Shown here piece after piece: positions 1 through 60,263 of a stretch of DNA of 60,263 bases; the stretch's first letter is position 1; every line of letters begins with the position of its first letter. Source of the stretch: a virus; the IMG/VR virus record IMGVR_UViG_3300039002_000009, positions 1-60,263 of that record; one strand, written 5' to 3'. The notes beneath the pieces are model-generated. The model saw only the letters and a program-made list of their open reading frames with translations. It was not told where the DNA came from and made no database searches. Position numbers and translations under genes: made by a program.

Positions 1-87
1 GCCCACGCAGCAGCCCACGCAGCAGCCCTCGCAGCAGCCCCCGCAGCAGCCCTCGCAGCAGCCCCCGCAGCAGCCCCCGCAGCAGCC
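1..87 (-). repeat. 12-nt coding tandem repeat at the left edge (AAAX array)
   Basis: Seven uninterrupted 12-nt units fill 1-84, followed by three more matching bases. On the plus strand each unit is GCCCNCGCAGCA; only N changes, reading A, A, T, C, T, C, C. On the coding (minus) strand this is GCT GCT GCG followed by TGG, AGG or GGG, giving Trp, Arg or Gly. The array is cut by the window edge, so its true length is unknown. Confidence 0.95.
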
Positions 88-5400: not shown

Positions 5401-5802
5401 ATGACCTACATCCTGCGTTGCAATCGGTGCAGCAAAGAAATCGAGACCAAGCCTCACACGGCTGACACTCCAGATGGGTGGCTCTGGATCGAGCAAGATG
5501 TATACCTCTGCCCTGATTGCCGAAAGATCGTGATGGGATGGATCGATCGCAAGAGTCCTCTCCCAGATGAGAACAAGATCAACATCGTCCTGGTCTCATG
5601 GAAGGGGGAACACTCGGAGGGCGTTATCCCCGCCACTGACAAAACCTTCGAGGCCGACTCTAGTGGCATCCTTCTTGTCCATATCCCACACGTTCTCTAC
5701 CCTCCATCCACCTCCGGCCTTTCCTCCGAGAGAATGGAACAAGTCCTTAAGGTGATTGGGGCGGCGGTACGTGTGGGTCTCCACTTAGAGGACGAACTAT
5801 GA
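5401..5802 (+). CDS. zinc-binding hypothetical protein, 133 aa
   Basis: CNRC near residue 7 and CPDC near residue 37 form a probable four-cysteine zinc site. The remainder is a mixed fold without recognised motifs. AAAGGAGAG precedes the ATG, which directly abuts the previous stop. Consecutive zinc-ribbon genes suggest duplication or a shared early role. Confidence 0.65.
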   Translation: MTYILRCNRCSKEIETKPHTADTPDGWLWIEQDVYLCPDCRKIVMGWIDRKSPLPDENKINIVLVSWKGEHSEGVIPATDKTFEADSSGILLVHIPHVLYPPSTSGLSSERMEQVLKVIGAAVRVGLHLEDEL

Positions 5803-5948
5803 ACACCCAACAGCGAGTTGACATGTGGTGTGCCATCTTCCTTCTCCTGGGGCTCATGGCCGGTCTTGGTGCAGCGTTCATGACCTCATCCTGCCGCGTC
5901 CCCGCCGTGGCTGAACACCCTGTGAAACCTCAAATCATTCGAGTCTAA
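5799..5948 (+). CDS. small single-pass membrane protein, 49 aa
   Basis: MNTQQRVDMWC is followed by a hydrophobic segment (residues 12-29) and a short polar tail. ATGA overlap with the previous gene supports it. Could be a small regulator or part of an early envelope function; nothing identifies it. Confidence 0.55.
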   Translation: MNTQQRVDMWCAIFLLLGLMAGLGAAFMTSSCRVPAVAEHPVKPQIIRV

Positions 5949-5957
5949 GGAGAAGGT

Positions 5958-6122
5958 ATGAAAACCAAACTTGGTCTTCCTGGTCTTGCCGCAGTCATGG
6001 TTATTGCCGCTGGTGCTGTTGCCTATTCGTGCCGCAATATATTTGCCGTGGTGATGTTAATAGTGGCTATCGCCCTCATCGCGTTTTTCTCCACTCTTGC
6101 CATTATCGTCACGGATATCTGA
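5958..6122 (+). CDS. small two-pass membrane protein, 54 aa
   Basis: Two hydrophobic helices (about residues 6-24 and 28-52) joined by a YSCRN turn. GGAGAAGGT sits immediately before ATG. Its stop overlaps the next start (TGATG). Confidence 0.6.
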   Translation: MKTKLGLPGLAAVMVIAAGAVAYSCRNIFAVVMLIVAIALIAFFSTLAIIVTDI

Positions 6123-9281: not shown

Positions 9282-10091
9282 ATGGATGTTCCAGACATGA
9301 TTGTAAATTGGTGGCTGAAGATCTTTGGATGGGTTCCATCGTGGATGTTGCCGGCTATCCCCGCCCCGGGTCCAGGCAAGATCCCATGCTACATCTTGTC
9401 GGGCCAGTCCAATGCTGCAGGCGCACCAGAGAGTTCTGGGCTCACACCAAAACAGGCGGCCATAACCTCGGGATGGGGGATCTTCGCAGATGGGACTGCG
9501 GTAGACCCCGCTAAGAAGCATGTCTGGTGCATGGGGGTGGAACCAGGATTCGGTGCCGATGCAACAAAGTTTGGGCCTGAAGTCGGGTTTGCACAGGTCA
9601 TGAAGCCTGCCTTCAATACGGGTCTGATTATCAAGTTCACGGCACCTGGGATGGGTCTAGAGCAATACTTCCTCTCACCCTCCGGAGGAGGAGCAAAGGA
9701 GGGTTATGTTAGGCTACTCAGGACCATTCGGGATGCCTTCAACCCCGCCAATGCCTACCTCGCGGGGGTGATCTGGATGCAGGGCGAAACAGATGCCACA
9801 GCCCTCAATACTGCGAACGACTACGCCAAGAACCTCATGTGTCTCATATCAGACCTAAGACGAGACACAAAGTACCCTAGCCTTCGTTTCGTGATAGGCA
9901 AGATTCATACATCGCCTTACTGGCCTTTCGCATACATCGTTCGGGCAACACAGGATTCAGTGGCCAAGGTGTGCGCCAATGTAAAGGATTTTGAAACTGA
10001 GGACCTAGCCTTGGGAGCGGATAACGCTCATTTCAATGCTCAGAGTGAGTATATTTTGGGTGTGAGGTTCGCGGAGGCCATGCTTGCCTAA
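9282..10091 (+). CDS. SGNH/SASA-type carbohydrate esterase, 269 aa
   Basis: The motif ILSGQSNAAG with Ser43, a second block WMQGETD at 165-171, and DNAH with Asp247/His250 are the three blocks of sialate-O-acetylesterase-like (SASA) enzymes, which remove acetyl groups from glycans. No classical signal peptide is clear, although the N-terminus is Trp-rich and hydrophobic. GAGGAGG precedes ATG. It sits directly before the terminase large subunit, an odd place; it may be a virion component that deacetylates host surface glycan, or act on the glycan built by the 40-47 kb operon. Confidence 0.8.
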   Translation: MDVPDMIVNWWLKIFGWVPSWMLPAIPAPGPGKIPCYILSGQSNAAGAPESSGLTPKQAAITSGWGIFADGTAVDPAKKHVWCMGVEPGFGADATKFGPEVGFAQVMKPAFNTGLIIKFTAPGMGLEQYFLSPSGGGAKEGYVRLLRTIRDAFNPANAYLAGVIWMQGETDATALNTANDYAKNLMCLISDLRRDTKYPSLRFVIGKIHTSPYWPFAYIVRATQDSVAKVCANVKDFETEDLALGADNAHFNAQSEYILGVRFAEAMLA

Positions 10092-11655
10092 CGATCACAA
10101 TGTCCCTGCCCTGGAGGGGCTGGAGCTGGGTAAGACCATCCTGGCGCGGGAGGCAGAGTCGGCATTCCTAACAACAGGGATCGCCAAGACTCCCTATGAT
10201 CCTCAACGCGAGATTCTAAACTCTACACAGAAGATCCTGGCATTTCTGGGAGCGAACCAGTCAGGAAAGACTCATACTGGTGTCATTAAAATGGCCTGGG
10301 ATGCAACAGGGTTATACCCTGAATGGTATCACGGAAGGCGAACAACCAGAGGGATTGACGCATGGATCATGGGGAAGACGGCTGAAAACACCCGTGATAC
10401 AGCTCAAAAAAAATTATTTGGCTCTAATATTGATAAGCCGGGATGGACAGATAAGCCTGGGCAAGAGGCTTTGATCGGCCAGAAGTATATCCTCGCGAAG
10501 CCTACGCGGAAGCCTGTCCCCGGAGCCTTCGATACGGTTCTTGTGAAGCATGTCCCGAGCGATACTACATCTCGACTGATGTTCAAGTCTCACCAGATGG
10601 ATACGGTAGCCCTGGCCTCTTGGTCTGGTGACCGAGTGCTCGTGGATGAGGAGTGCCCAAAGGAGGTTCTGGATGAACTCATCGCCCGTGTATCGGTTTC
10701 GGATGGGCAGATCTTCATAACGTTATGTCCTTTGGATGGGCTAACGCCACTCGTGAAATGGATCATGGAGATGGCAGAGCGGCATCCAAGCTTGCTCAAG
10801 CTCTGCTATCTCACATACGATGACGCACAGCACCTTGATCCTACTGTGAAAGCTGCGAACAGGGCATTGTGGTCTTCTAACCCGGCGATGATGGCGGCTC
10901 GAACCGAGGGAAGAGCTGTAAGCAACCACGGTCTCATTTTCCCGTTCGCGATCGCTGATATCACCTACGATCCGACCCAGATCATCATCCCTGACCACTG
11001 GCCTCGTCTAGGTGGACTCGATGTAGGCTTCCGACATCCAACTGCGGCTGTAGCCACCGCTTTGGACCTCGCCTCAGATACCGCCTACGTCTATGCCAGC
11101 TACGAACGTGCAGAGATGCCCTACGGCTATCACCATGGCCAGCTCTTGAACTGGGGCCAGAACATGACGTTCATGATCGACCCCGCCTCGGATCAGGTTT
11201 CTCAAGCCGACGGGAAGACCATCCTCCAAGGTCTCTGGTCCTTGACTCATGGCCAGCCTGACATCGATGGCGAAGGCGGATACATGGCCATCGAAGAAAC
11301 CAAGCGTAAGTATATCAAGGCTAACAATTCATTCGCCGAGTCTCAGGATGCGATGTGGCATCGTTTCGGATCCCGGCGTCTTCTGATCTCTAGAGTCCTG
11401 AAATCCTTACTAGATCAGTATGGTTCCTATGCCTGGAACACGGATGGGAACGGCCCGAAGCGTGAGACTCCAGCTCTCCGCTACGATATCATCACGTCCC
11501 TCCGCTACTGCACGCTTGGCCTGGCTCAATATGCCCACCGGCTCAATGCGATCCCGCCCTGGCAGGAAGTCGAGGAGTGGGAGGATGTGCCGCAGGTCAA
11601 GGAATGGAAAAAATATCGCGCCGGCGAAGGCGGTCAGGGGCAGGTCCTCCGGTAG
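10084..11655 (+). CDS. terL: terminase large subunit
   Basis: ATP-driven DNA packaging motor and nuclease, 523 aa. Walker A GANQSGKT is at 56-63 and Walker B VLVDEE at 185-190. The nuclease domain begins around GGLDVGFRHPT (Asp313) and has further acidic residues in MIDPASD (Asp366, Asp370). The start is TTG at 10084, overlapping the esterase stop, with GGAGG six nt upstream. Length is typical for the family. Confidence 0.93.
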   Translation: MPNDHNVPALEGLELGKTILAREAESAFLTTGIAKTPYDPQREILNSTQKILAFLGANQSGKTHTGVIKMAWDATGLYPEWYHGRRTTRGIDAWIMGKTAENTRDTAQKKLFGSNIDKPGWTDKPGQEALIGQKYILAKPTRKPVPGAFDTVLVKHVPSDTTSRLMFKSHQMDTVALASWSGDRVLVDEECPKEVLDELIARVSVSDGQIFITLCPLDGLTPLVKWIMEMAERHPSLLKLCYLTYDDAQHLDPTVKAANRALWSSNPAMMAARTEGRAVSNHGLIFPFAIADITYDPTQIIIPDHWPRLGGLDVGFRHPTAAVATALDLASDTAYVYASYERAEMPYGYHHGQLLNWGQNMTFMIDPASDQVSQADGKTILQGLWSLTHGQPDIDGEGGYMAIEETKRKYIKANNSFAESQDAMWHRFGSRRLLISRVLKSLLDQYGSYAWNTDGNGPKRETPALRYDIITSLRYCTLGLAQYAHRLNAIPPWQEVEEWEDVPQVKEWKKYRAGEGGQGQVLR

Positions 11656-28357: not shown

Positions 28358-28554
28358 TGAATACTCCCTATAAAATCCCTAAGAAGCCGAAGGCCAAACC
28401 CAGGCCGAAGGCCAAACCCAGGCCGAAGGCCAAACCCCGGCCAAGGATGCCGAAGCGCCCGAAGCCTGTCCCTAAACCCAAATCACCCGTTCCGTCTTCT
28501 CCACAGAAGCCGATCAAAAGAGACCTCTATGGTGAAGACCAGATCATGACCTAG
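28357..28554 (+). CDS. Lys/Pro/Arg repeat protein, 65 aa
   Basis: The GTG start at 28357 has CGGAGG upstream and overlaps the previous stop. Most of the chain is (K/P/R/A)-rich with KPRPKA repeated three times, made by 18-nt DNA repeats. Highly basic and unstructured; it could bind DNA, RNA or acidic cell-wall polymers. No family recognised. Confidence 0.55.
   Translation: MNTPYKIPKKPKAKPRPKAKPRPKAKPRPRMPKRPKPVPKPKSPVPSSPQKPIKRDLYGEDQIMT
28387..28440 (+). repeat. three 18-nt tandem repeats
   Basis: CCGAAGGCCAAACCCAGG occurs at 28387-28404 and 28405-28422, and with one change at 28423-28440. The near identity at DNA level points to recent slippage or duplication. Confidence 0.9.
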
Positions 28555-29990: not shown

Positions 29991-30302
29991 ATGGCGACCT
30001 CTAAAATTGTCCAGTGGGGGAATGGGGCCACTGGCGTTACCAGCGCGACCGGCTATTCCGATGCCGCCTACGCGCCTTACCCCACCAAAACCCTCCAGGC
30101 ATTCCTCAAGACTGGGACGCAGGCTACAGGCGTTGTTTGGGGGTCTATCGATGGGAATGTGAGGCATCAGCTCGGAACATTGACCCTTTCGGGGACCAAT
30201 GGTGAAGATGCTTATACGGGAGTTAGCGCTTACAACTATCTCTTCCTGGATATCACCGGGATCACGGGGTCTACAGTTGAAGCGTTTGCCCGAAGCACGT
30301 AA
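29991..30302 (+). CDS. hypothetical virion-type protein, 103 aa
   Basis: Gly/Thr/Ser-rich beta protein (MATSKIVQWGNGATGVTSATGY...). AAGGAGAGTAAA precedes ATG. Composition is like small decoration or fibre-cap proteins. A hairpin follows the stop. Confidence 0.6.
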   Translation: MATSKIVQWGNGATGVTSATGYSDAAYAPYPTKTLQAFLKTGTQATGVVWGSIDGNVRHQLGTLTLSGTNGEDAYTGVSAYNYLFLDITGITGSTVEAFARST

Positions 30303-30307
30303 TCCTC

Positions 30308-30327
30308 AAGGGGCAGAGATGCCCCTT
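30308..30327 (+). terminator. hairpin AAGGGGC/GCCCCTT
   Basis: Perfect 7-bp stem with loop AGAGAT right after the stop at 30302 and before the glycosyltransferase gene. No T-run, so an attenuator or mRNA boundary is more likely than full termination. Confidence 0.45.
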
Positions 30328-30342
30328 CCTATTGGAGATCCC

Positions 30343-31386
30343 ATGAGGCTGTGTTCGATCACCCCTACATCCAACCGCGAGGCGTTGATTGGCGACGCGC
30401 TCCGGAGCGTTGTGGATTGGGTTGATGTCTGCCTCTTGTTGGATCTCGGCATTACTGATCGGACCCTTGAAGTCGCCAAGGAGGTGGCTGGCGACAAACT
30501 CAAGGCTGTGAAGGTTCCTGGCGAACTCATGATCAACTTCTGCGATGTCCGGAATTTTGGACTTGATGAAGCAGCCAAGGAGGCTGACTGGGGGGTTCTT
30601 CTTGATACAGATGAACGTCTCTATATCAATGGGACGGACGTGCGAGGAGAACTTGGCAAGATCGGGGACGGGATTGTCCTCGTCCAGAGCCAAGATAAAC
30701 ACTACCCCAAAGAGCGGTTCGTGAGCCTCCCGGCTATAGATAGATACGTTGGGAAGGTCCATGAAACGATCGTCCCCCTCCATGCAAAACAAAGCCCTCT
30801 CCCTGGAGTGGTTTTCCTAGAAATACAAAAAACACCCGAGGAGTTGAAGGCCAAGCTCGAATACATACTCCCCCTCTTGGAGGAGGAGACCCGGAAGGAT
30901 CCACAGTGCCCACGCTGGTGGTACTACCTGGGCGATACCCTGGAAGGGTTAGGCCGTCGGGATGATGCCATTGCCGCTTTCGATAGATGCTCTGTGTTGA
31001 GGGGGTGGGACGAAGAATCGGCCTGGGCCTGTTTTAGAATGGCCATACTTTTGGAGAATAGTGGCCGACGGCAGGATGCGATTGATATCTGCTGCGCGGG
31101 GCTCGCTCGCCATCCTGGGATCGCCGAATTGGCATGGCTCGCGGGAGAGGTCTCTCTCCGACTTGGATGGAACGACAAAGCCGTCTATTGGGCGAGAATG
31201 GCCGTGGCGAACGGAACGAATCATGGGGAAGGCCATTTCATTAAACCGAGGATTGGCTTCCGATATGATTTTGCCGCAAAAGAAGGCCCGTTTGATGTAA
31301 TGGCTAGGGCTTACGAAACGCTCGGGATGGCAGAGGAGGCGGCTTCAGCCAAGAAGATCTACGAGGCTCTGAGGGGGGACAAATGA
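30343..31386 (+). CDS. glycosyltransferase (GT2-like) with TPR repeats, 347 aa
   Basis: N-terminal GT-A-like domain: SITPTSNREALIGDALRSVVDWVD and a DxD-type LLDTDERL (about residues 80-90). From about residue 180, helical TPR units follow (CPRWWYYLGDTLEGLGRRDDAIAAF; ESAWACFRMAILLENSGRRQDAI). ATG at 30343 is preferred because GGAG lies 5 nt upstream; ATG at 30319 is inside a hairpin. Placement among fibre and ejection genes suggests it sugars a virion protein or host surface. Confidence 0.75.
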   Translation: MRLCSITPTSNREALIGDALRSVVDWVDVCLLLDLGITDRTLEVAKEVAGDKLKAVKVPGELMINFCDVRNFGLDEAAKEADWGVLLDTDERLYINGTDVRGELGKIGDGIVLVQSQDKHYPKERFVSLPAIDRYVGKVHETIVPLHAKQSPLPGVVFLEIQKTPEELKAKLEYILPLLEEETRKDPQCPRWWYYLGDTLEGLGRRDDAIAAFDRCSVLRGWDEESAWACFRMAILLENSGRRQDAIDICCAGLARHPGIAELAWLAGEVSLRLGWNDKAVYWARMAVANGTNHGEGHFIKPRIGFRYDFAAKEGPFDVMARAYETLGMAEEAASAKKIYEALRGDK

Positions 31387-42044: not shown

Positions 42045-43111
42045 TGGGAACAAATCTATTCAACGATCTCTTTGTTCTAGAAGCCGCAAATAATCATCTT
42101 GGGAGCATTGAGCGCGGTCTCCGCATCGTGACCGAGTATGGCCATGTCGTGCGCTACCATGGTGTCAAAGCCACGATCAAACTCCAACTTCGCGACCCGA
42201 ATACATTCGTTCACAAAGACTTTCGCGAACGAGAGGACATCCGCTACATCAAGAAGTGCATGCAGTGCCGAATGCCGCGTGAGCATTTCAAATCACTTGC
42301 CGAGGCAATTCGAAGCTATGGGTGTATCGTCTCTGCGACGGCCTTTGATGAGCCTAGTGTCGATCTTGCTGAAGAAATCGGCTGTAAGATTCTCAAGATC
42401 GCGAGTTCAGATGTGACGGATTGGGGTCTTCTGGAAAAGATCGCATCCAAGCGCATCCCGGTGATTGCCTCTCTCGGTGGGACATCCTTAGAGGACATGG
42501 ATAAGATCGTGGACTTCTTTGGCAAGCGCGGCATTCCCCTCGGAATCAACCATTGCGTTGCAATCTATCCAACCGAAGACGAAGAATTAGACCTAAATCA
42601 GATCGACTTCCTGAGGCAACGGTATCCAGGAATGACGATTGGCCTCAGCACCCATGAGCATGGGGACTGGCATACAAGCATGGCTATCTCTTATGCCAAG
42701 GGTGCTCGTATGTGGGAAAGACATGTAGAAGTTGATCATGATGGCATCAAGGTTTCACCCTATTGTTCTCTTCCTCATCAGATCGACGAGTGGTTCCGCA
42801 CCTATGCCAAGGTGAAGGCCATGTGTGGAGCACCGGGGACCGAGAAGCGCATCCCTCCTCGCAAGGAAATCGAATACCTTAACTCGCTTGTGCGTGGGGC
42901 TTATGCTTATCGGGCTATTCCGGCTGGACACGTTATTCAGCGAGGAGACCTCTATTTGGCGGTGCCCCTTCAGAAGGGCCAGCTCAGTTGTCGTGAATTT
43001 ATTCTTGGCGAGAGGTTAACGAAGTGGCTAGATAAAGACGCCCCCTTAACGGTTGATCATATCGATCTTGACCCTTCTCTCAAAAATCTCATTGCTGATC
43101 GGGGCTTGTGA
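42044..43111 (+). CDS. NeuB-like sialic acid synthase family protein with SAF domain, 355 aa
   Basis: A TIM barrel with LEAANNHLGSIERG and KATIKLQLRD near the N-terminus, KILKIASSDVTDWGLLEKIA in the centre, and HCVAIYPTEDEELDL, all corresponding to NeuB blocks. The last ~65 residues (AYRAIPAGHVIQRGDLYLAVPL) form the antifreeze/SAF domain that closes the NeuB active site. NeuB enzymes condense phosphoenolpyruvate with a sugar to give nonulosonic acids. No CMP-sugar synthetase is in the window, so activation would use a host enzyme or the product is atypical. Start overlaps the previous stop. Confidence 0.85.
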   Translation: MGTNLFNDLFVLEAANNHLGSIERGLRIVTEYGHVVRYHGVKATIKLQLRDPNTFVHKDFREREDIRYIKKCMQCRMPREHFKSLAEAIRSYGCIVSATAFDEPSVDLAEEIGCKILKIASSDVTDWGLLEKIASKRIPVIASLGGTSLEDMDKIVDFFGKRGIPLGINHCVAIYPTEDEELDLNQIDFLRQRYPGMTIGLSTHEHGDWHTSMAISYAKGARMWERHVEVDHDGIKVSPYCSLPHQIDEWFRTYAKVKAMCGAPGTEKRIPPRKEIEYLNSLVRGAYAYRAIPAGHVIQRGDLYLAVPLQKGQLSCREFILGERLTKWLDKDAPLTVDHIDLDPSLKNLIADRGL

Positions 43112-44280
43112 TGCCGCGTGTATCTATTATTTTGACGACTTTTCAGCGTCCCGCGATGCTTCTCGAAGCAATCAATGGTGCTCTCTCTCAGACCTATGAA
43201 GACTTCGAACTCCTGGTGATGGACAATGCCAGCACAGACTATACCGGTGATGTGGTTCGACAGCTCAAGGACCCCCGATTGCTCTACATCCGCAGACCCG
43301 TAAACAATGGCAGTGCGGCGAACTGGATGGAAGGTCTGTCAAGGGCTAGGGGAGAATTGATCCTTAACACGCATGACGATGACATCATGCACCCAACCAT
43401 GCTAGAACGCGAAGTCGAGGTGATGGACGCCAGTGGAGCGAAGATGGTTGGATGCAATGTGAGAATTGTGGACAAGAATGGCGGTCTAATGCAGGATCGA
43501 TTTAGCCCGGATGCAACGGATCGTATTTTTACTCGTGGGGAATTCATTCGCGCCTATATGACGGAACGCTTCACATTCAAATGTTCTACACAATTGACTC
43601 GGAGATGCGACCATGATTGGATGTCAGGCTCTGGGGATCCGGGAATCGGTCCTTTGGGCGACATCTACATGGTTTGTCTCGCCAATTCGAAAGGGTCTGT
43701 TGTCCACATTGCCGATCCTCTTCTTGATTACCGCGTCCATGAAAGTGGTGAGACATTCACGCTCGACATCACGCCGAGTGATATCAAGTTGCACATGAAG
43801 GTAAGGGATCTGTGCAGATCCTCGGGTCTTGATTGGTGCTTGCCCTATATTCATTCATCTATGCTCCGATATCGCATTCTCCAGTCGCTCATCCATGGAG
43901 TTAAGCCTCGGTCTCTTCTCCGCAAACTCGGTGGTATCGAAACCGAATTCCCTAACAACTTCAGCCTCCCAGTCTTCCCAGACGGACGAGCACGTAAGTA
44001 TCAAGGTAAACGAGTCGCCATCGTTGGCAGCCTTCTTAATGCATTTCTTTTGGCAGAAGAATGCCTTGCGTCCGGGGTGAAGGTGGCTTACTTTGTAGAC
44101 AACAATACCAAGCGTCAAGGGAAGCGTCTCGATGATCTCAACATCTATCCCTTTAACAGGCTCCAAACCGACCCCGTTGATCTCGTTATTTCTTCTTGTG
44201 AGAAACGATCTATCGATCAAGTCCGGCCCATGGTTAGCAAATATACCGACACACATGTTGTTTCTTGGAGGGACCTGTGA
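43111..44280 (+). CDS. family 2 glycosyltransferase, 389 aa
   Basis: GT-A start PRVSIILTTFQRPAMLLEAINGAL, then MDNASTDYTGDV and the metal-binding LNTHDDDIMHPTM. After about residue 290 a second, Rossmann-like domain follows (KRVAIVGSLLNAFLLAEECLASG), which is not part of a standard GT2 and may bind a nucleotide sugar. It would transfer the sugar made by the operon. ATG overlaps the NeuB-like stop. Confidence 0.85.
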   Translation: MPRVSIILTTFQRPAMLLEAINGALSQTYEDFELLVMDNASTDYTGDVVRQLKDPRLLYIRRPVNNGSAANWMEGLSRARGELILNTHDDDIMHPTMLEREVEVMDASGAKMVGCNVRIVDKNGGLMQDRFSPDATDRIFTRGEFIRAYMTERFTFKCSTQLTRRCDHDWMSGSGDPGIGPLGDIYMVCLANSKGSVVHIADPLLDYRVHESGETFTLDITPSDIKLHMKVRDLCRSSGLDWCLPYIHSSMLRYRILQSLIHGVKPRSLLRKLGGIETEFPNNFSLPVFPDGRARKYQGKRVAIVGSLLNAFLLAEECLASGVKVAYFVDNNTKRQGKRLDDLNIYPFNRLQTDPVDLVISSCEKRSIDQVRPMVSKYTDTHVVSWRDL

Positions 44281-59460: not shown

Positions 59461-60263
59461 CTATGTCTCAACGTCAGGATGATACTCTTCAGCGCGCTTG
59501 CCAAAAGTGCTAGCTACAGCAGCGCGGGCTGTCATCTCTTGAGGTTCTCCGAGAGAGCCATCCGGGTGCATAGGACGTAGTTCGGGGTGTACGCGGAGGA
59601 AATACGTTTTGCGAGACCCGTCAGGTTCTGGTGTCGAATTCAGGACTTCCACCATCACCATCGGATCATCATCAGCTAAATCACGTTTCCAAAGTTTTCC
59701 AGTCTCATCCTGATGGACTAGTTTCGCTCCAGATTCCTGCAAAAAACGTGAAGGCCCAAAACGTTCGATCATCACGCGGCGAACTTCAGTGTTTTCTTCT
59801 GCCAGGATAGATTCAGGCGTTAATGATTGAGGGTGTTCAATGACCCTGCATGGCACCCGAACACCTTTATACGCATAAAGTGCATAGCCATCGGAGAAGG
59901 CCATGGCAGGACCGTTTTCGCAATGGAGGCGATTACGCGAATCTTGATGGATCTCGGTGGGACGGTCACAAATAAAACAGATACCCTCAAAGGTATAGAC
60001 CCATCCACACGATTGGGCACATCGCTCCCATTGATGCAATAGCTCACGCTGGTCATCTGTATAGATTGGATGGATGAACCGATCAGGGAATGTGTAAAAT
60101 GAAATCCAATATTCGTCCCATTGACCCCAAAACCAAGTCCAGTAATAGACCATCTTGGTTTTGTCGAGGAGCTGGTCGAGGAGCTGGCCGCGGAGCTGGC
60201 CGCCGAGCTGGTTGCCGAGCTGGTCGAGGAGCTGGTCGCGGAGCTGGTCGCCGAGCTGGCCGC
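59461..60263 (-). CDS. DUF6745-like protein with N-terminal Asp-Gln-Leu-X repeats (5' end missing)
   Basis: Leftward gene entering from the right edge; 267 residues visible. The body starts MVYYWTWFWGQWDEYWISFYTF and contains RSCGW-like CGWVYTFEGICFI, RLHCENGPAMAFSDGYALYA, RRVMIERFGPSRFL and VEVLNSTPEPDGSRKTYFLRV, a pattern I recognise as DUF6745, a family of unknown function. Before the body, and in frame with no stop, is (D/G/N)QL(L/R/G) repeated at least eight times. The ATG at 60153 could be an internal start; the open repeat frame argues the real start is outside. Confidence 0.8.
   Translation of the reverse strand, partial: GQLGDQLRDQLLDQLGNQLGGQLRGQLLDQLLDKTKMVYYWTWFWGQWDEYWISFYTFPDRFIHPIYTDDQRELLHQWERCAQSCGWVYTFEGICFICDRPTEIHQDSRNRLHCENGPAMAFSDGYALYAYKGVRVPCRVIEHPQSLTPESILAEENTEVRRVMIERFGPSRFLQESGAKLVHQDETGKLWKRDLADDDPMVMVEVLNSTPEPDGSRKTYFLRVHPELRPMHPDGSLGEPQEMTARAAVASTFGKRAEEYHPDVET
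60163..60263 (-). repeat. 12-nt coding tandem repeat at the right edge (DQLX array)
   Basis: Eight full 12-nt units fill 60163-60258, then five more bases. On the plus strand each is GTC-NNN-GAGCTG, the second codon being GAG, GAG, GCG, GCC, GCC, GAG, GCG, GCC (coding strand CTC, CGC or GGC: Leu, Arg, Gly). The first codon varies less (GTC, GCC, GTT: Asp, Gly, Asn). GAGCTG never changes. The array is cut by the edge. Confidence 0.95.

Follow-up and report, generated by a model that had tools for sequence, protein, structure and literature searches.

The stretch of DNA analysed here (the window), an IMG/VR virus fragment of 60,263 nucleotides, carries 12-nucleotide coding repeats in two unrelated genes. 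The question that this locus raises is whether a common mechanism builds or diversifies such four-residue arrays, as a first-pass annotation had proposed, or whether ordinary repeat turnover and selection on the protein could account for them, and what an array of this kind might do for the protein that carries it.

The window ends in a coding array on both sides

The features concerned are the following.

59461..60261, minus strand: gene for a DUF6745 protein, 266 amino acids, 5' end missing; PF20530 on residues 71-266
60163..60263, minus strand: 12-nt tandem array, eight full units and a partial one, CAG CTC (C/G)(T/G)C (G/A)(A/G)C = QL[L/R/G][D/G/N]; cut by the contig end
3..449, minus strand: Imm5_like (PF21805) gene with an AAAX array, 3' end missing; likely ATG start at 377
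1..87, minus strand: companion 12-nt array AAA[G/R/W], GCT GCT GCG NGG; cut by the contig's left end

The protein encoded at the right end belongs to DUF6745 (PF20530, E=6.6e-62, 208.9 bits against a gathering cutoff of 27). Its array lies on the N-terminal side of the domain, and the reading frame of the array is set because the PF20530 domain lies downstream. TRF reported a repeat of period 12 at 60163-60263 (8.4 copies, score 132), and a pattern search of the window with CAGCTCBKCRRC found eight consecutive units on the minus strand (60163-60258), a number reached in 0 of 100 shuffles (mean 0.24, maximum two). The array is thus real, with a 12-nt unit of four residues and with CAG CTC (GAGCTG on the plus strand) invariant across all units, as the first-pass annotation had it. 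It is confined, however, to 60163-60263 and does not fill the whole of 59461-60263 to which it had been assigned, as 59461-60162 encodes the DUF6745 domain and a linker. Variation, previously placed in one codon, affects two: the X codon (CTC, CGC or GGC, for L, R or G) and the codon after it (GAC, GGC or AAC, for D, G or N). The GAG-GCG-GCC triplets pointed out earlier turn out to be X codons on the plus strand, for L, R and G in that sequence, found twice in the short run. Third codon positions are all constant, and every difference between units is therefore an amino-acid change. The first 32 residues of the protein read GQLGDQLRDQLLDQLGNQLGGQLRGQLLDQLL; the full length of the array and the protein N-terminus fall outside the contig, and unit counts were made by pattern tools and by eye.

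The Imm5_like assignment is based on a partial gene (PF21805, 26.0 bits against a gathering cutoff of 25, E=9e-6; 1.1e-7 in a second search), which also matches phrog_18326. The arrays in its close relatives are Ala-rich and degenerate, and their spacing is mixed; a peptide-pattern search for close relatives of the window DUF6745 gene found none. The contig breaks inside an array at each end, the DUF6745 array on the right and the AAAX array on the left, and contigs L006, L032, L034, L040 and L042 likewise end in arrays, so that assemblies tend to break in them.

Elsewhere in the window there is a further tandem array with an 18-nt unit (28386-28446, 3.4 copies, GCCGAAGGCCAAACCCAG), as well as matches to a terminase large subunit (10084-11655) and to two family 2 glycosyltransferases, one of them weak (30199-31386 and 43108-44280). 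These matches mark the window as DNA of a tailed phage, one that may modify sugars.

DUF6745 relatives carry arrays in the equivalent place

In relatives at about 30-50% identity, an array occupies the equivalent place, between a conserved N-terminal domain and DUF6745. Array-bearing DUF6745 proteins occur in many phages and in bacteria of several phyla, with the cores DQL, SSL, NL, SV, QV and NI:

Spring siphophage: SSL[W/G/R/E]
Mycobacterium abscessus prophage: [D/G]QL[W/R/G]
M. parascrofulaceum: [D/A]SV[W/R/G]
Roseovarius: [D/A]NL[W/R/G]
Planctomycete, Rhodocyclales MAG and one virus: [D/A]QV[W/R/G]
Aestuariivirga: NI[W/R/G]
One virus: SSL[W/R/G/D]
Other members: GAV[D/G/N/Y/R]; SAV[G/D/R]

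Third-position changes are rare in these arrays but present in L128. Arginine in the W/R/G arrays is encoded by AGG or CGG, almost never by both, the exception being L096. Other sets of X codons exist too, namely NNC in the window and L185, and NRG in L206. Four homologues devoid of an array (L005, L007, L028, L036) retain the C-terminal domain, with non-repetitive sequence, or nothing, in the place of the array. It needs to be mentioned that in a gammaproteobacterial MAG (L009:3033-3210) a 9-nt, three-residue array, GCG WGG GMC = A[R/W][A/D], replaces the usual one, and that one viral contig carries two related DUF6745 arrays (L089:3600-4140 and L096:2640-3000), the L096 copy being apparently broken by out-of-frame deletions.

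Arrays change by whole units between close relatives

Three M. abscessus prophages (L041, L003 and L044) encode near-identical flanking protein around arrays of about 20, 46 and 63 units in differing order, although these sequences are mostly draft assemblies whose lengths carry some doubt, and short-read assembly errors may lie behind some of the differences. The size gaps between M. abscessus DUF6745 proteins, 108 and 172 amino acids, correspond to 27 and 43 units. Unit number therefore varies between close relatives whose ends are conserved. Since arrays differ even between close strains, the stable and identical arrays that the first-pass annotation had named as speaking against its proposal are not what is seen. 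Whole-unit differences inside identical ends are also found in gp54 of Tweety, DeadP and Taj, mycobacteriophages with finished genomes.

Within single arrays, the manner of change can be followed further. In L003, 45 of 45 units fit CAGCTCBGGGRC and the two variable bases occur in all six pairings, which means that there must have been repeated change or exchange inside units. In L019 (M. parascrofulaceum), where 41 of 41 units equal TCGGTCDGGGMC, nine units at 5737-5844 recur exactly at 5857-5964, ten units on. This is direct evidence for block duplication and, together with the small number of unit types, it is as expected for ordinary tandem-repeat turnover. One Roseovarius chromosome assembly contains five identical copies of the DUF6745 array gene (L012-L016), pointing to a mobile element or a prophage that is present many times; as these copies are identical, turnover is not always fast.

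The design is shared by unrelated protein families

The idea that unrelated genes share one design was borne out more broadly than it had been put: at least five unrelated families of proteins contain 12-nt arrays in which third positions are frozen and one or two codons vary. They are DUF6745, Imm5_like, DUF7666 and two phage families without a name. When viral contigs were scanned for (GGGMC N7) x5, at least 120 matches came up. Among the matches listed, arrays of the [A/D]AA[W/R/G] type lie in DUF7666 proteins (L077, L122), in one unnamed family whose N-termini are 48% identical (L072, L132), in a second one grouped by eye (L062, L070, L098), and in an Imm5_like-type protein grouped via phrog_18326 (L084). 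Several phage families that are not related to each other have come by the same array design, whether it arose in each or spread among them. We also considered NGG-GMC as a special DNA motif. The control pattern GCGMC x5 was equally abundant (at least 120 matches, of which three sampled were similar arrays with other codons), so enrichment is not claimed; the codon pattern is common, and its special status is not proven. A literature search found no paper naming DUF6745 or DUF7666.

Tweety gp54 is a described array of this kind

The first-pass annotation knew of no described system of this form. Such a system has, however, been known since 2007, when gp54 of mycobacteriophage Tweety was described as having 48 tetrapeptide repeats with a 12-bp unit and invariant third codon positions, a pattern "consistent with selection for variation", and its authors raised the possibility that structures of this sort are more common than recognised (PMC2884959). 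It was later tied to counter-defence: according to a 2022 review, Tweety mutants that escape the Phrann gp29/gp30 defence have an altered repeat number, and the juxtaposition of the two end domains of gp54 was proposed as the tuned property (PMC9262239).

The Tweety-type arrays and those of the window, L003 and L019 all consist of in-frame 12-nt units with a fixed core and invariant third positions. Tweety gp54 and its relatives (phrog_3416) share with the window array the four-residue unit with two fixed core residues, and with DUF6745 arrays the restriction of variation to first and second codon positions, the differing copy number and the conserved termini. In contrast, the Tweety core is AA rather than QL, and its X alphabet is G/W/Q and S/Y. 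Tweety gp54 has no match in Pfam and is not a DUF6745 protein, and no sequence relation to DUF6745 was found; the window protein, in turn, matches phrog_31813 only among PHROGs and not phrog_3416. As far as these comparisons indicate, the DUF6745 array is like Tweety gp54 in design, yet outside that protein family; any function suggested for it is carried over from gp54, for which counter-defence is reported, through this likeness of design. A possible homology between gp54 and L098 was dropped, as BLASTP gave nothing and a weak shared PHROG match was not taken as homology.

Other known systems resemble the DUF6745 arrays less closely. The VR2 repeat of Bordetella phage BMP-1 bbp36, as cited in PMC2884959, is likewise a variable-number repeat in a phage gene, a non-essential one, but consists of a 24-bp element with 5-bp spacers. 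The repetitive gene of DRT2 (PMC12039810) is also a tandem coding repeat in phage-host conflict; it is made by a reverse transcriptase from RNA, whereas the DUF6745 array lies in the DNA itself and its virus records gave no match to such an enzyme. Diversity-generating retroelements likewise limit variation to chosen codons of a phage protein, but depend on a reverse transcriptase, and the arrays described here show whole-unit turnover.

Structural comparisons gave little. AF2 modelled the array at low confidence (pLDDT about 30) and left it unresolved; a solved-structure search and Foldseek yielded no structure or fold match, and PADLOC and NCBIfam searches gave weak matches only, within the repeats. 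Residues 143-203 of Tweety gp54 resemble a FliH repeat stretch (NCBIfam E=1e-12, far below the curated cutoff), and a structural parallel between the gp54 array and flagellar FliH is possible.

No reverse transcriptase is found with the arrays

We looked for a gene that might always accompany the arrays, as the first-pass annotation had advised. A set of 22 DUF6745 virus records, of which some are fragments, gave no match to reverse transcriptase (RVT_1), the enzyme expected in the genome of a retroelement target, while control genomes did give matches. Imm5_like is present in one of the 22 (the window itself), and of 24 DUF6745-bearing bacterial genomes four have it. In Mycobacteriales, it occurs in 9 of 20 DUF6745-positive and 61 of 180 negative genomes (the overlap being hand-counted). 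The two families are thus sometimes together outside the window, and it is not the case that they never co-occur elsewhere, but there is no association beyond chance, and their co-occurrence in the window looks incidental. With neither reverse transcriptase nor family association, and with block duplication and few unit types, a common enzyme behind the arrays is not supported.

A length-tunable linker as the favoured reading

The explanation that we favour, with a probability of roughly 55%, is that the array is a length-tunable linker, shaped by selection on the protein and evolving through slippage or unequal recombination, likely with a role in host interaction or counter-defence by analogy with Tweety. 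In a phage protein of this type, the array would link the N-terminal domain to the DUF6745 domain at the C-terminus, and replication slippage or unequal recombination would add or remove units as a whole, 12 nt and four residues at a time, so that length and unit order could change without a frameshift. In a helix, four residues are close to one turn, or about 6 angstroms. We infer both that the array is helical and that slippage is the route of unit change; such a linker would lengthen by some 6 angstroms per unit with a modest rotation. Selection would hold the core residues fixed and favour mixed residues at one or two positions, while turnover would keep synonymous sites uniform; that selection acts on the protein is indicated by the fact that nearly all unit differences change an amino acid. 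The most likely role of the DUF6745 array protein, on the analogy with gp54, would be in host interaction or counter-defence, with activity adjusted by repeat number. Slippage and selection do not fully explain why X is W, R or G via NGG in many lineages.

This recurrence of W/R/G in unrelated arrays, together with the restriction of variation to the first two positions of one or two codons, is what might be expected of a dedicated diversifying system (RT/DGR-like, or an error-prone polymerase or recombinase) that acts on the X codon of every such array. We consider such a system very improbable, given the lack of RVT_1, the NNC and NRG codon sets, the block duplication in L019 and the lack of association between DUF6745 and Imm5_like. 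Free mutagenesis of the X base in particular was dropped, as nearly every array, L096 excepted, uses a single Arg codon.

On the other hand, the arrays might be neutral minisatellites, that is by-products of slippage in GC-rich DNA that form a disordered linker whose length and sequence have no selected role. Low AF2 confidence, array-less homologues and degenerate arrays of mixed spacing would suit this idea, yet array after array, that of Tweety included (PMC2884959), keeps third positions constant while first and second ones vary, core residues are retained, and a phenotype is reported for the repeat number of gp54 (PMC9262239), all of which makes neutrality unlikely. Somewhat less probable still is that the order of X residues forms a recognition surface, a code read by a varying partner, with sequence and not length being selected. 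The M. abscessus strains do differ in unit order, and the X residues come from a small set, time and again W/R/G, followed by D/A or D/G; however, in Tweety, DeadP and Taj the edge units are conserved and the interior changes, no common order was seen between hosts, and what was altered in the reported Tweety mutants was repeat number.

What the arrays may mean for phages

Tweety gp54 had been a curiosity, and the design it represents now proves to be common in phages, to span unrelated protein families and to reach bacteria of several phyla. Array genes are probably under-counted, because phage contigs from metagenomes often break off within arrays of this kind. As a tentative idea, less probable than the linker itself, four-residue arrays may be a general phage contingency module, in which at least five unrelated families would have acquired a 12-nt, third-position-frozen array that retunes their proteins against changing host defences by gain and loss of whole units. 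The arrays define a testable class of proteins, in which the number of repeats may set the activity.
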